This document shows positions 11,498 to 21,996 of a stretch of 60,300 nucleotides of DNA, in pieces (the stretch's first letter is position 1; each line of letters begins with the position of its first letter). The stretch is taken from NCBI RefSeq assembly GCF_022760955.1, contig NZ_JAKTNU010000015.1, positions 1 to 60,300 on the forward strand, given 5' to 3'. The translations under genes and the position numbers were made by a program. Source of the DNA: Thermus neutrinimicus (lineage in GTDB: Bacteria > Deinococcota > Deinococci > Deinococcales > Thermaceae). Below the pieces are notes generated by a model. That model had not been told where the DNA came from. It made no database searches and saw only the letters and a list, made by a program, of their open reading frames with translations.

Positions 11498-11519
11498 ACC
11501 CCGGGCCTAGGCCCGGGGT
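11498..11519. terminator. Bidirectional terminator between convergent genes
   Basis: ACCCCGGGCCT followed by AGGCCCGGGGT, a fully self-complementary 22-mer between the FmdB-like gene (plus) and the DUF192 operon (minus). No long T-tract on either side. Confidence 0.65.
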
Positions 11520-11968
11520 TAGTGTTGCACCCGGTCCCCCGGGGAGAGGTCTAAAAGCCCCTCCCGCACCTCCAGTATCCCCCGGTAGGCAAGGCCGGGG
11601 GCGTAGGTCTCCCCGGGCTGGACCCGGCTCACCTTGAGCACCCGGCCTTTGGCGTCCAGGAAGGCCAGGAGCACGGGAAAGCGGTAGCCTTCCGTGTTGA
11701 AAGGGGCGTCGGTGGCCTCGGGAAATAGGTAAAGAAGGGCCTCGAGCTCCTCCTTCCGCACCCCCAGGCCCCGGCTCCAGGCCTCTGGGGTGCGGGCCAG
11801 GCGGGCCTGGAGCACCCTTTGACCCTGGGCTGTTTCCACCACCACCCTTTGGGGTGGGGGAGGGGTTTGCAGCCTTCTGGCGGCGAGCAGGTAGCCCATG
11901 AAGGAAAAGACGGAGAGGACGATGAGTAGGGCAAAGGCCACCAGGGGAAAGAAGGGATTCCGTTCCAC
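11519..11968 (-). CDS. DUF192 protein, membrane-anchored
   Basis: 149 aa. An N-terminal membrane segment (about 7-30, PLVAFALLIVLSVFSFMGYL) and Pro-rich linker precede a DUF192 domain: ARTPEAWSRGLGVRK, a run of strands, LLAFLDAKGRVLKV and YRGILEVREGLL. The family is extracytoplasmic and of unknown biochemistry. It starts 1 bp after the stop of another DUF192 gene, so the two are a coupled tandem duplicate, although they differ in much of the sequence. Last gene of the nif3-like/tmk operon. Confidence 0.82.
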   Translation of the reverse strand: MERNPFFPLVAFALLIVLSVFSFMGYLLAARRLQTPPPPQRVVVETAQGQRVLQARLARTPEAWSRGLGVRKEELEALLYLFPEATDAPFNTEGYRFPVLLAFLDAKGRVLKVSRVQPGETYAPGLAYRGILEVREGLLDLSPGDRVQH

Positions 11969-11969
11969 C

Positions 11970-12455
11970 TTACCTCGGCCAGAGCCTCAAGGCCTCGCCC
12001 CCCACCCTGGCCCCGGGGGTGAGGCCACGTTTTTGGAACCAGCCTTGGTTCACCTCGAGGGCCCCCTGGTACACCACCCCGGGGTAGTACACGGGGCAGG
12101 GGTCTTTGCGGCAGGGCTCCATGTCCAGAATGCGGAGGATCACACCTTGACGGTCAAAGAAGGCGATGGAAAGGGGAATGAGGGTGTTCTTCATCCAAAA
12201 GCCCCCGGCCGTGGGGGTAGGGAAAAGGAAGACCATCCCCTCGTCTTCCCCCAGGCTTTTGCGGAACATGAGGCCCTGGGCCTGGCGCTCGGGAGTGTCC
12301 GCCACCTCCACCCTGAGGGGGTAGCGCTTGCCTCCTTGCTCCACGAAGAGGGTGCTTTTGGGGAAGGAAAGACCCTGGCCTAAGGCCCAAAGCCCCAGGG
12401 CAAGCCATAGGGCTAGGCTGAGGCCAGGCCGCCAAGGGGGAGGGGAAAGGCGCAT
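11970..12455 (-). CDS. DUF192 protein, secreted
   Basis: 161 aa from the ATG giving MRLSPPPWRPG; a longer frame upstream has poor coding character and would run into tmk. Signal peptide about 1-35 (LSLALWLALGLWALGQGLS). The DUF192 core is canonical: VEVADTPERQAQGLMFRKSL, GMVFLFPTPTAGGFWMKNTLIPLSIAFFD with the conserved W-M-K-N-T, and YQGALEVNQGWF. It has a CRKDPC pair that could form a disulfide. Seven bases downstream of tmk. Confidence 0.88.
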   Translation of the reverse strand: MRLSPPPWRPGLSLALWLALGLWALGQGLSFPKSTLFVEQGGKRYPLRVEVADTPERQAQGLMFRKSLGEDEGMVFLFPTPTAGGFWMKNTLIPLSIAFFDRQGVILRILDMEPCRKDPCPVYYPGVVYQGALEVNQGWFQKRGLTPGARVGGEALRLWPR

Positions 12456-12462
12456 AGGGCCA

Positions 12463-13787
<1,325 letters not shown>

Positions 13788-15661: not shown

Positions 15662-15667
15662 TACCTA

Positions 15668-15694
15668 CCCCGCCCTGGCAAAGCCAGGGCGGGG
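15668..15694. terminator. Terminator between S9 peptidase and DUF3467 genes
   Basis: CCCCGCCCTGGC-AAA-GCCAGGGCGGGG, a perfect 12-bp stem, placed between two convergent genes and able to serve both. Confidence 0.75.
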
Positions 15695-15710
15695 AGTCCC
15701 GCCATCCCCA

Positions 15711-15977
15711 TTAGGCCTGGCTCTCGGCCACGGGCTCGGGAATGGGGCCGAAGACTTCCTCGTACCGGGCTACGTTTTCCGCCAGGCTCCGGAGAAGGGC
15801 CTTGGCGTGCTGGGGGCTGGTGATCACCCGGCTGACCACCAGGGCCCCGCCCTGGGGTTGCAACAGGGCGAAGTCCAGGATGAACTCGTTCTTGGTGTGG
15901 GCGATGAGGGCCAGGTTGGTGTACCGGCCCAGGGCCACCTCCTTGTCGATTTGGATATCCAGTTTCAGCTCGCTCAT
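15711..15977 (-). CDS. DUF3467 family protein
   Basis: 88 aa. Matches the DUF3467 pattern: YTNLALIAHTKNEFILDFALLQP, VVSRVITSPQHAKALLRSL and ENVARYEEVFG. Proteins of this family are found in bacteria and archaea and have no settled function; the fold predicts a small beta-rich adaptor. The gene overlaps the preceding roadblock-like gene by 4 bp and is last in the ebfC-recR operon, with its terminator just downstream. Confidence 0.85.
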   Translation of the reverse strand: MSELKLDIQIDKEVALGRYTNLALIAHTKNEFILDFALLQPQGGALVVSRVITSPQHAKALLRSLAENVARYEEVFGPIPEPVAESQA

Positions 15978-16324
15978 CTAAGGGCCTCCTCCAACTTGGG
16001 TACGGTCCTCTTCAAGGCCAGGCGTACCCGCCCCAGGCTTCTCACGCTGTCCAGGAGAAGGAGCAGGTGATAGCCGGGAAGGGGCACCAGTAGCAGGGCC
16101 CCCTCGGGGTACTCTACCATGACCTCCTCCACCCCTTCCTGGCCCAGGATCTGGGCCAGGGCCTTGGCGGTGCCCAAGACCGTGGCCGCCCGGGCGGAAA
16201 GAAGGCTGGCCTCAGGGGCCTCCGCCTCCCGGGCCTCCTCCACCACAAACCCGTCCTCGCTGAGGAGGGCGGCCACCCGTACTCCCCTGGTGGCCTTGAG
16301 TTCCTGTAGGGCTTGTTCCACCAT
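15974..16324 (-). CDS. Roadblock/LC7-like protein, third of three
   Basis: 116 aa. Roadblock/LC7 layout: first helix (MVEQALQELKATRGV), strand VAALLSEDGFVVEEA, long helix with LLSARAATVLGTAKALAQIL, strands EEVMVEYPEGALLLVPLPGYHLLLLLD, and final helix. Family members (MglB, for example) dimerise and act as GAPs or scaffolds for small Ras-like GTPases. No MglA-type GTPase gene is in the window. 13 bp after the second roadblock-like gene and overlapping DUF3467 by 4 bp. Confidence 0.78.
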   Translation of the reverse strand: MVEQALQELKATRGVRVAALLSEDGFVVEEAREAEAPEASLLSARAATVLGTAKALAQILGQEGVEEVMVEYPEGALLLVPLPGYHLLLLLDSVRSLGRVRLALKRTVPKLEEALR

Positions 16325-16337
16325 GCCTCCTTAGCCG

Positions 16338-16667
16338 TCAGAGGTTCTGCACCCTGAGGGCGATGCGGGAAAGCTCCTGTCCGATGGCCTTGCGGTCCAT
16401 GCCCCGCTCCACCACCGCCCCCAGGATGTACTCCCCTACCCGTAGGGCCAGGATTTCGTGGGTGTCCGTGGCAAGGGTAAACCGGCGCACCTCCCCGGAG
16501 AGGGCTTCCGCCAAGGGGGTCATGTGCCGCACCAGGGAGGCCAGCTCCGCCGCCAGCACCTCCGCCGGGGGGCTTCCCCGGCCCAGGGCCTCGATGACCA
16601 GGCCGTCCAGGCCCGTGAGCACCGCCCGCTTAACGCCAAAGGGGGTCAGGCTCTCTAGGTAAGCCAT
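16338..16667 (-). CDS. Roadblock/LC7-like protein, second of three
   Basis: 109 aa. Same outline as its neighbours: an initial strand pair VKRAVLTGLDGLVIEALGRG, a central helix VLAAELASLVRHMTPLAEAL and a paired strand region RRFTLATDTHEILALRVGEYILGAVVE. The G-L-D-G-L-V core is typical of roadblock domains. It overlaps the upstream roadblock-like gene by 13 bp, so translation is coupled. The distribution of three diverged copies in a row suggests heteromeric assembly rather than redundancy. Confidence 0.75.
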   Translation of the reverse strand: MAYLESLTPFGVKRAVLTGLDGLVIEALGRGSPPAEVLAAELASLVRHMTPLAEALSGEVRRFTLATDTHEILALRVGEYILGAVVERGMDRKAIGQELSRIALRVQNL

Positions 16668-17065
16668 CCCGCCACCTCCGCCAGCCTATCCGCCGCCTTG
16701 GCTGTCTGCACGCGGGCCTGGCCCAGGTTGGCTTCCGGCCCCAGGAGGAGAAGGAGGAAAAGCTCCTCGTGTCCCTGGCCTCGAGGCGAGGGTCCCTGGG
16801 GTCCTGGGCCTATCCTGCGCACCACGCGGGCATAGCCTACCACGGGATTACCCCCCACCAAAAGCTCGTGCACCCGGGAGGTGCCCAGGCTTGCGGCATA
16901 GGCGGCCTTGGCCTGGCGCAAAAGGGCGGCGTGTTCCGCCACCGCCGCCTCGAGGTCAAGCCGCCTGCGCCTGGCCCCTTCCACCAGGAGCCCGTCCAGG
17001 GTGCCAATGGCGGCGGCAAGGGCTCCTTCCACCTGGTCCAGGAGGTGTTGCAAAAGCTCCTCCAT
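16655..17065 (-). CDS. Roadblock/LC7-like protein, first of three
   Basis: 136 aa. Starts with helix MEELLQHLLDQVEGALAAA, then strand IGTLDGLLVEGA, a long helix (AAVAEHAALLRQAKAAYAAS) and paired strands VHELLVGGNPVVGYARVV and ELFLLLLLGPEANLG. Between the last two strands an inserted Gly/Pro/Gln-rich loop (about 90-100) is longer than usual. The fold assignment rests on the strand-helix-strand pattern and on the company of two better matches. It follows recR by 16 bp. Confidence 0.7.
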   Translation of the reverse strand: MEELLQHLLDQVEGALAAAIGTLDGLLVEGARRRRLDLEAAVAEHAALLRQAKAAYAASLGTSRVHELLVGGNPVVGYARVVRRIGPGPQGPSPRGQGHEELFLLLLLGPEANLGQARVQTAKAADRLAEVAGWLT

Positions 17066-17081
17066 ACCCCTTCCCCGGCGC

Positions 17082-17666
17082 CTAAAGGGATTTTCTCCCC
17101 TCCAGCGCCCGGCCCAAGGTTACCTCGTCCACGTACTCCAGGCTTCCCCCCACGGGGAGGCCATAGGCCAGGCGGCTGGCCCTGATCCCCCGGCGCTTGA
17201 GCTCCTCCGCCAGGAAGAGGGCGGTGGCCTCCCCCTCCACGGTCATGGAAGTGGCCAGGACCACCTCCTCCACCCCGGAAAGCCTGGCCCAGAGGCTTTC
17301 CAGGTTGAGCTCCTTTGGACCTACTCCCTCCAAGGGGTTCAAGACCCCACCCAGCACGTGGTAGAGCCCGTGGAACTCCCCGCTCCGCTCCAGGGCGTAC
17401 AGGTCGGAGACCGTTTCCACCACGGCGATCACCGACCGGTCCCGGGTCTCGTCCTGGCAGATGGGGCAAACCTCCCCCTCCGCCAGGTTGCCGCAGACCC
17501 GGCAGACGCCCAGGGCCTCGAGGCCAGCCAAGGCCCTTTCCAGCTCCTCGGCCTCCTCCCGATGGAAGGCCAGGTGGAGGGAGAGCTTCTGGGCGGTTTT
17601 GGGGCCGATCCCAGGCAGGCGGGAGAGGGCACGGGCCAGCTTGAGGAGGCTTTCGGGGTACCTCAT
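17082..17666 (-). CDS. recR: Recombination protein RecR
   Basis: 194 aa from the ATG giving [14 protein letters not shown]; the upstream extension in the same frame is not conserved. Helix-hairpin-helix [19 protein letters not shown] at about 10, four-cysteine zinc finger (CRVCGN and CPICQD, about 55-72), Toprim domain with [12 protein letters not shown] (about 82), [12 protein letters not shown] and a Walker-like [17 protein letters not shown] at the end. It loads RecA with RecO/RecF on ssDNA gaps. One base after the ebfC stop, the widely conserved ebfC-recR pair. Confidence 0.96.
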
Positions 17667-17667
17667 C

Positions 17668-17985
17668 CTAGAACAGTTTGCCCAGCATCTGCCCCACGCC
17701 GCCAAGCTCCCGGGCCATCTCCTTTTCCGAAAGCTCGTGGGCCTTCTTCTGGGCGTCCTGGATGGCCACCAGAAGGAGGTCTTCCAGGCCCTCCAGGTCT
17801 CCTTGGAAGCTCTCCAGCACCTCAGGCTTCAGGCGGACCGCCAGGATCTTGCCGTGCCCGTTGGCCTCCACCTCCACCAGGCCCTGGGCCGTGCCCACCA
17901 CGGTCATGGTTTCCAGCCGCTCCTGGATCTCGGCGGCCTTCTTCTGGGCTTTCTGCGCTTCCTTCAAGAGCTTCTGAAGGTTCAT
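17668..17985 (-). CDS. ebfC: YbaB/EbfC family nucleoid-associated protein
   Basis: 105 aa. A YbaB/EbfC protein: [24 protein letters not shown] coiled-helix, then [21 protein letters not shown], and a C-terminal helix with [13 protein letters not shown]. It binds DNA as a dimer and affects nucleoid organisation. The frame continues upstream as a long open frame antisense to hemB, but the ATG here has GGGAGGGAG five bases before it. Promoter: minus TATACT (18001-18006) with -35 TTGGGC (18023-18028), overlapping the hemB -10. Confidence 0.93.
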
Positions 17986-20221: not shown

Positions 20222-20248
20222 AGTATACCAGGAATGGCTTTGGGTCAA
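20222..20248 (-). promoter_or_regulatory. MFS transporter promoter
   Basis: Minus strand: TTGACC (20243-20248), 15-bp spacer, TATACT (20222-20227). The -35 overlaps the stop codon of the upstream 583-aa gene. Confidence 0.5.
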
Positions 20249-21996
20249 GGGTTTTCCATCACCAGGTACGCAAGCCGCCTTCCCTCCCGGGCCAGGATCA
20301 CCATCTCCTCGGGGAGACGGTAGACCAGGAGGTCCTTGAGCCTTTGGGGCACCTCCCCCGCCTGGCCCACGTAAAGGACGTCCTCCTGGGGATCTTGGGA
20401 AGGGGCGTTCCTTGGGCGCAGGGAAAGGACGGTTTGCCCCACCTTGAGGGCCAAGGGTTCGGCCCCGATGGAAAGAAGGTGCACTTCTCCTCCTAGGGTT
20501 TCCCGGGTGGGGGGGCGGCGGCCCAGGTACTCCCTTAGGGCCGCCGCCAGGACCAGGGCTTCCTGCTCCTGCCCCAGGGCCTGGCCCACCTCCTGGAGGA
20601 GGGGGGTAGGGTCCGCCCCACCCAGGCGCTTCAGGGAGAGCTCCAAGACCTTGCGGGCAAAGTCCTGCAGGGCTTCCCAAGGGGCCTGGCGGTACTTCCC
20701 TGCCAGCTCGGGGCCAAAGGCCTGGGGGCTGAACTCCCCTTTTAAGCGGGCGGAAAGGGCCCTGAGGAGGCGTAGGTAGACATGGTCCTGGCTAGGGTTT
20801 AAGAGGAGGGCCAGCATCCGTCCCTCGGCCAGGAGCTCGTAAAGCTTGAGCCCGCTTCGCGCCTCGAGCCTCAGGTGGAGGAGCTCTCCCTCCCGCACCG
20901 CCAGGACCTCGAGGTCCTCCCATGGGATCACCAGGGTGTCCTCCAGCACATGGTCCTCCCCGCCCAGCCCCAGGTGCCACGTCCCCTCCACTTGGCTCAG
21001 GGTGAGGACAAGGGGGCCTAGGGGGATCCGACCTGGCCTTAAGGGCAGGGTGAGGAGGTTTTCCTCCCCCTGGCCGGGTTCGGGAACCCTGGGCCACGGG
21101 GTTTCCCCTTGGGGGGTGGGAAGGAGGTTCAAGAGGGCCAGAACCTTTTCCGCCGCCACACGGAAGCGGCGCCGTTCCTCTTCCAGGAGGAGCTCCCGCC
21201 GCCTTTCCTCTTGGGCCTCTTTCCTAAGGCGCTCTTCCAGCCGGGCGATCTCCAACGCGCTGGCTCCCAGGTTCTTGGCCTCCTCCAGGGCCTTTTTCAG
21301 GGGCAAAAGGTCCCGCTTGGGAGGGAGGCCGTAGGCTTCCTCCCACTCCAGGATGCGGTTCAGGAAGCGGCGGATGTAGGTGCGGGTTTCCTCGGGGGGC
21401 AAGGGAAGGTCCTGGGGCAGGTGCAGGGTGGTTTCCAAAAACTCCGTTACCAGGGCCTCGGCTACCTTGGGGTCCTCGAGGTCCATGAGGCTATCGGAAA
21501 GCGAGGGGATGGGCTGGGTAGGATGGAAGCGGGAGAGGTTGAAGTCCCGCTTGAAGGTTTCCTTTTCCCGGTACTCCAGGTAATTCCCCAAGAAGGCGTG
21601 GATGAGCCTGAGTTCCTCCCGCCTTCCCGTGAGGAGGTCCTTGGCCCGGGCCTTGACCTCCCGCTCTGCCAGGAGGCGCCACACCTTTAAGGCCATGGCC
21701 CGTAAGGGGGAAGGCTTTTCGGTGGGGGTGGGCTCCTCCAGGTTCTCCGGGGCCGGTGGGAGGAGGTCCAGGGGAGGGGTCTCCGCGGGTGGGGAAGGGT
21801 TAAGGCTTTGCCGCAGGGCCCGGAAGCGGGCATCGGCCTGGCGGAAGCGCTTGGCCAAGGGCCCTGGCAAGCGAGCTTGGATGAGGAAGGCCCTCAGTTG
21901 CAGGAGAGCCCTCTTGCCCCCTTTGGGGGTGCGGCCTAGGGCCAGGTCCTCCACCCGGTACTCGTAGAGGTCCACCAGGTCGGCCAGGTGTTCCAC
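20245..21996 (-). CDS. Large hypothetical protein divergent from PP2C/Ser-Thr kinase operon
   Basis: 583 aa, start GTG (MEHLADLVDL). Function not recognised. Residues 1-65 are a helical domain, 66-100 a Pro-rich linker (PPAETPPLDLLPPAPENLEEP), 100-240 helical (RLIHAFLGNYLEYREKET), 235-290 a charged coiled coil (LEERLRKEAQEERRREL), and 300-583 alternating strands and helices. No signal peptide or membrane segment, so cytoplasmic. It shares an overlapping promoter with the divergent PP2C gene (22005-22012) and would be leaderless. The location suggests it is a partner or substrate of the phosphatase/kinase pair, but that is inference from position only. Confidence 0.7.
   Translation of the reverse strand: MEHLADLVDLYEYRVEDLALGRTPKGGKRALLQLRAFLIQARLPGPLAKRFRQADARFRALRQSLNPSPPAETPPLDLLPPAPENLEEPTPTEKPSPLRAMALKVWRLLAEREVKARAKDLLTGRREELRLIHAFLGNYLEYREKETFKRDFNLSRFHPTQPIPSLSDSLMDLEDPKVAEALVTEFLETTLHLPQDLPLPPEETRTYIRRFLNRILEWEEAYGLPPKRDLLPLKKALEEAKNLGASALEIARLEERLRKEAQEERRRELLLEEERRRFRVAAEKVLALLNLLPTPQGETPWPRVPEPGQGEENLLTLPLRPGRIPLGPLVLTLSQVEGTWHLGLGGEDHVLEDTLVIPWEDLEVLAVREGELLHLRLEARSGLKLYELLAEGRMLALLLNPSQDHVYLRLLRALSARLKGEFSPQAFGPELAGKYRQAPWEALQDFARKVLELSLKRLGGADPTPLLQEVGQALGQEQEALVLAAALREYLGRRPPTRETLGGEVHLLSIGAEPLALKVGQTVLSLRPRNAPSQDPQEDVLYVGQAGEVPQRLKDLLVYRLPEEMVILAREGRRLAYLVMENP

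Follow-up and report, generated by a model that had tools for sequence, protein, structure and literature searches.

The three genes that lie behind ebfC and recR in a compact operon of a Thermus genome encode non-identical proteins of the roadblock family, termed here R1, R2 and R3, which, judged from their sequences, form three ortholog groups, old and distinct, in Thermaceae, Trueperaceae and further families of Deinococcota, R1 being on the same grounds the closest to MglC among roadblock proteins. Our favoured explanation, to which we give about an even chance, is that R1-R2-R3 serve the MglA polarity switch as an accessory regulatory arm of the MglC/MglB type, with EbfC and RecR outside it and the DUF3467 protein as an optional member.

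The operon and its surroundings

The window, a stretch of 60,300 nucleotides, is one contig (C15) of a 2.06-Mb Thermus genome. Six genes are read from its minus strand in the order ebfC-recR-R1-R2-R3-DUF3467, ebfC being the first, and this order, together with the family matches of the products, bears out the six-gene operon of the initial annotation. The features are as follows:

17668..17985, minus strand: ebfC (YbaB/EbfC nucleoid-associated protein), 105 aa; PF02575 at 2e-23, TIGR00103 at 6e-16
17082..17666, minus strand: recR (recombination mediator), 194 aa; TIGR00615 at 2.3e-64
16655..17065, minus strand: R1, MglC-like roadblock, 136 aa; PF03259 at 20.0 bits, MglC profile and fold
16338..16667, minus strand: R2, roadblock, 109 aa; PF03259 (Robl_LC7) at 9.6e-8
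15974..16324, minus strand: R3, MglB/CvnB-like roadblock, 116 aa; PF03259 (Robl_LC7) at 4.7e-13
15711..15977, minus strand: DUF3467 protein, 88 aa; PF11950 at 1.5e-20
15665..15696, no strand assigned: GC-rich hairpin; MFE -35.7 kcal/mol, z -2.48

The spacings, in operon order, are 1, 16, -13, 13 and -4 bp. The compactness first described, with gaps of 1 to 16 bp, is therefore real, but there are two overlaps, of 13 bp (R1/R2) and 4 bp (R3/DUF3467), and not three. Upstream, hemB (ALAD) is divergent from ebfC at a distance of about 30 bp, and a sigma-70 promoter scan of the operon found none. The 3' end of the operon faces a convergent S9 peptidase gene, with the GC-rich hairpin in between. Of the strong terminator that had been placed at this end, the strong hairpin stands, but it carries no T-tract and the terminator scan revealed no canonical intrinsic terminator; the element is likely a terminator or an insulator of a kind that does without a T-tract.

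Two other regions of the window, both on the minus strand, may be mentioned: two tandem DUF192 genes at 11519-12530 (PF02643, 2.3e-10 and 3.5e-32), apparently diverged paralogs, and a 583-aa open frame at 20245-21996, for which no Pfam match was obtained at 1e-5.

R1, R2 and R3 as roadblock proteins

Both R2 and R3 score above the curated Pfam cut-off for Robl_LC7, and the profile of R2 retrieved the roadblock structures 7f8f (6.5e-11) and 7f8m (2.1e-8). R1, by comparison, remains under the 23-bit cut-off of this family and was recognised by its profile and its predicted fold. A profile made of 18 R1 orthologs matched Myxococcus MglC (7ct3) at 7.1e-22, the next structure following at 3e-10, and the AF2 model of R1 (pLDDT 89.8) showed the element order H-E-E-H-E-E-E-H, which is the alpha-beta-beta-alpha-beta-beta-beta-alpha topology of roadblock proteins. 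When this model was searched with Foldseek, which gave 85 matches at E<=0.001, the first PDB match was MglC (3.1e-8), followed by Thermus MglB, while the TM score was higher to MglB structures than to MglC (0.75 vs 0.58). The description of the three middle genes as genuine, non-identical roadblocks is thus upheld, for R2 and R3 by Pfam and for R1 by the MglC profile and the predicted fold.

In a tree of 82 roadblock sequences, built on few columns and with bootstrap values that had not fully settled, R1 (100/99), R2 (87/78) and canonical MglB (100/100) formed separate groups, and R3 appeared as one group except that MglB was placed within it. R1 was joined, with moderate support (93/71), by three delta-proteobacterial MglC-like proteins. 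This separation suggests that R1, R2 and R3 are old distinct lineages and not recent copies.

MglC of Myxococcus xanthus is a roadblock adaptor between RomR and MglB, and MglB is the GAP of MglA in both M. xanthus and T. thermophilus. R1 resembles MglC in its full-length profile similarity and its best fold match, and in part also at two binding sites, through the acidic turn that corresponds to the MglB-docking site and through one of the three basic residues that make up the RomR site. The F25-D26-I28 site of MglC aligns with an L/M-[D/E]-G-L turn of R1, where the position of D26 is acidic and that of I28 is Leu in all aligned rows (40/40 for each), whereas F25 is not conserved and is mostly replaced by Leu or Met. 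At the RomR site (KRR), the equivalent of R106 is Arg in 39/41 sequences, that of K104 is Q in 24, K in 9 and R in 6, and R110 is not kept. R1 differs from MglC in its surroundings as well, as it is one of three roadblock genes that follow ebfC-recR, while in delta-proteobacteria two MglC-like genes lie between aroB and an aroQ-type gene, in a locus of the order aroB-TPR-MglC-like-aroQ-type; recR was sought next to the delta-proteobacterial MglC-like genes and was not seen.

R3, the most widely kept of the three, has M. xanthus MglB as the best match of its profile (4.5e-11), with which it shares the roadblock domain. In Myxococcus, residues F25, D26 and I28 of MglC contact K14, R115 and K120 of MglB, and this contact is broken by MglA-GTP (PMC10329633, PMC7949163). 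The equivalent of the MglC-contacting R115 is Arg101 of R3, which is invariant (60/60), and a basic residue (R106 of R3) occupies the K120 position in 59/60 sequences; MglB K14 could not be aligned. R3 differs from the MglB of its own genome in length (116 aa vs 163 aa) and in not lying beside mglA, and it scores 37.5 bits, below the cut-off of 200, against the NCBIfam MglB equivalog. It also resembles CvnB5 (PDB 3leq) of the Streptomyces conservons (CvnA-D), which differ from the present operon in that none of its six genes encodes a histidine kinase, a DUF742 protein or a GTPase.

The interface residues of R1 and R3 were looked up with the homology already known, and R2, too, often has D-G turns; docking of R1 on an MglB-type surface is therefore to be considered supported rather than proven. 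R1 is missing from Meiothermus, Calidithermus and their relatives and from genus g21. Since R3 has retained its basic patch just as well in the lineages without R1 (Meiothermus and relatives, g21), R1 alone does not explain this patch, which must have a further use.

Within Thermus, one R1 gene (G010:C4:893091-893414) carries an in-frame TAG, and R1 was undetected in two genomes (G015 and G094), one of them only 65% complete; R1 may thus be degenerating in some members of the genus. Two other Thermus genomes (G014, locus L068, and G093) possess a fast-evolving R3, matched at 5e-16 and 2.5e-18 vs about 1e-40 in the others, as if selection had been relaxed or changed.

MglA in the same genomes and a candidate regulatory arm

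The earlier remark that no GTPase is present holds for the operon but not for the genome, which encodes a canonical mglB-mglA pair on another contig, C12 (L001, 765-1256 and 1258-1845), with an MglB of 163 aa; the polarity GTPase MglA invoked for this genome is accordingly there. In none of the loci read does the roadblock module adjoin mglA.

The co-occurrence of the two was determined across 111 genomes that belong to a single order and among which Deinococcus was not recognisable, MglA being scored by protein search and R3 by profile. One genome (G090) was counted as lacking R3, its sole R3 match being its mglB, and the ambiguous, MglA-positive G074 was set aside. Among the genomes at least 95% complete, 63 harbor both MglA and R3, none has MglA without R3, 4 are devoid of both, and 1 (G107) has R3 without MglA. 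At 90% completeness one genome with MglA only (G070) appears, and G074, if counted as lacking R3, adds another. Fisher values are about 1e-5, a calculation that ignores kinship; the joint absences comprise three g11 genomes and G059 and thus perhaps reflect about two independent losses. A less complete g11 genome (G109) has both MglA and R3. Two genomes without MglA and R3 (G050 and G039) have kept pilT, which indicates that R3 tracks MglA more closely than it tracks pili. According to passages of PMC12024867 and PMC12393216 that cite Salzer et al. 2015, MglA and MglB of T. thermophilus have an effect on where pili are placed and on motility; why Thermus pili are biased to one pole is described as unclear (PMC12393216).

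Under our favoured explanation, R1, R2 and R3 would be ancient, non-interchangeable roadblock paralogs on an MglA/MglB switch that acts on pole-biased type IV pili. The MglC-like R1 would dock through its acidic [D/E]-G-L turn on the basic patch of an MglB-type dimer, provided by R3 and/or canonical MglB, while R2 and R3 would most likely add roadblock layers to this platform, a heteromer of the three proteins being plausible. Together they may place or tune the GAP activity of MglB, and hence MglA-GTP, at one pole. In one part of the phylum the module would have come to lie behind ebfC-recR, itself an old pair, with EbfC and RecR having no share in the mechanism and DUF3467 being an optional partner.

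Several observations speak against such an arm: MglB is already encoded beside mglA, where the module is never found; PP2C and kinase neighbours, described below, could be the real partners; the co-loss with MglA amounts to about two clades (g11 and G059) and, among genomes of at least 90% completeness, has one exception in each direction (G107 and G070); and R1 has not kept F25 and R110. Were the arm to exist, it would suggest that layered roadblock control of MglA, the MglC layer of which has so far been worked out in Myxococcus, is older and wider, and would place such control in a thermophile that is experimentally tractable and whose proteins are stable, while DUF3467 would gain its first testable context. 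No description of this roadblock module was found in the literature searched, the coverage of which mostly excludes subscription papers.

More tentatively, R1-R2-R3, with optional DUF3467, might form a Ragulator-like platform that is layered on MglB/MglA and fixes the pole of the type IV pili. What they have in common with Ragulator/Rag, the layered roadblock heterodimers of eukaryotes, is the presence of several non-identical roadblocks in one set and the predicted fold of R1, which also matches Ragulator subunits.

Gene order, DUF3467 and competing explanations

The roadblock genes follow recR in 47/60 neighbourhoods read, namely 38/40 in Thermaceae, 6/6 in f2, 3/3 in f4, 0/3 in f5 and 0/8 in f3 (Trueperaceae), f2, f4 and f5 being working family labels. 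In the two exceptional Thermaceae, R2-R3-DUF3467 are found together at other sites (L162 and L163), and in f5 and Trueperaceae a full or incomplete module is located elsewhere (L157, L158, L160, L165, L168 and L173-L175); ebfC-recR is present in Trueperaceae without an adjoining roadblock module. Several families have kept the order R1-R2-R3, and not always at the same genomic site. As this order persists across families while the adjacency to ebfC-recR varies, it is the roadblock set that is conserved as a unit, with ebfC-recR adjoining it in part of the phylum; this adjacency seems to be gene order passed on by descent and not the sign of a common task. Hence the link to ebfC-recR is not the fixed one that had been assumed, and of the six-gene order only the roadblock set is conserved across families, the order as a whole not being kept outside part of the phylum.

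In two Trueperaceae loci the R-genes and DUF3467 are followed by genes for a DsbA-like protein (L165), a PP2C (L165 and L168) and a Ser/Thr kinase (L165). Including these, four loci of Trueperaceae type (L165, L168, L173 and L174) place the roadblocks beside DsbA-like, PP2C and kinase (L165) genes, a possible signalling neighbourhood. We regard as doubtful the explanation that R1-R2-R3 and DUF3467 are a self-contained heteromer serving another regulator, such as a PP2C/Ser-Thr kinase pair, and that the co-loss with MglA is coincidental: the PP2C and kinase neighbours of L165 and L168, the absence of the module from the vicinity of mglA, and the fact that R1 may disappear from genomes that retain R2-R3 are all in its favour, but no such kinase neighbourhood was encountered outside Trueperaceae, the interface residues of R1 and R3 are of the MglC/MglB type, and genomes free of MglA are mostly without the module.

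The DUF3467 protein of the window, which matches PF11950 with 73.5 bits (cut-off 25), shares 90-95% identity with its counterparts in named Thermus species, and the family was detected in 98/111 genomes. It is absent from all f4 genomes (4/4), the three of which that were read keep ebfC-recR-R1-R2-R3, and a diverged DUF3467 is kept by four g11 genomes without R1, R3 and MglA. On these two patterns it was rejected as a component of the mechanism; a loosely attached, optional partner describes it best. Its AF2 model, of moderate confidence (pLDDT 77.6), is a small beta-beta-beta-alpha unit for which no fold match in the PDB was obtained at E<=0.001, the best being 0.04 with a low TM score. The DUF3467 family occurs in Bacteroidota and other phyla and is nearly absent from the literature searched, where a single mention in one paper was found; no roadblock neighbours were seen at the DUF3467 loci scanned outside the phylum. 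In Bacteroidales (L228, L229, L232, L244, L247-L249 and L254-L256) the gene lies directly, or nearly so, behind an rpoC-sized gene of about 1430 aa, and in Saprospiraceae/Lewinella-type loci (L222, L227, L238 and L241) it has a TopA-type gene as a direct or near neighbour. An apparent link of recR with DUF3467 in Saprospiraceae was discarded as an artefact, the matches concerned (E about 0.0004-0.005) being TopA-type Toprim proteins of about 850 aa.

These unrelated housekeeping neighbours of DUF3467 (the rpoC-sized gene and topA), its absence where the roadblocks stay, and the occurrence of ebfC-recR without the module in Trueperaceae are in line with a bystander situation, in which roadblocks with real but independent functions are clustered behind ebfC-recR as an ancient housekeeping block. 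We consider this unlikely, since the R1-R2-R3 order is kept at more than one site and R2-R3-DUF3467 have changed place together on two occasions, which speaks for a function held in common, at least by the roadblocks.

Finally, a scaffold linking nucleoid structure or recombination, through EbfC and RecR, to polarity GTPases, as originally suggested, is consistent with the tight co-orientation in 47/60 recR loci, but it has lost its main support with the fixed gene link and appears highly improbable, as the module occurs without ebfC-recR and ebfC-recR without the module, the two being separated between families and inside Thermaceae, R2-R3-DUF3467 have been relocated twice, and recR is retained in 81/81 genomes searched, including those free of the roadblock module.
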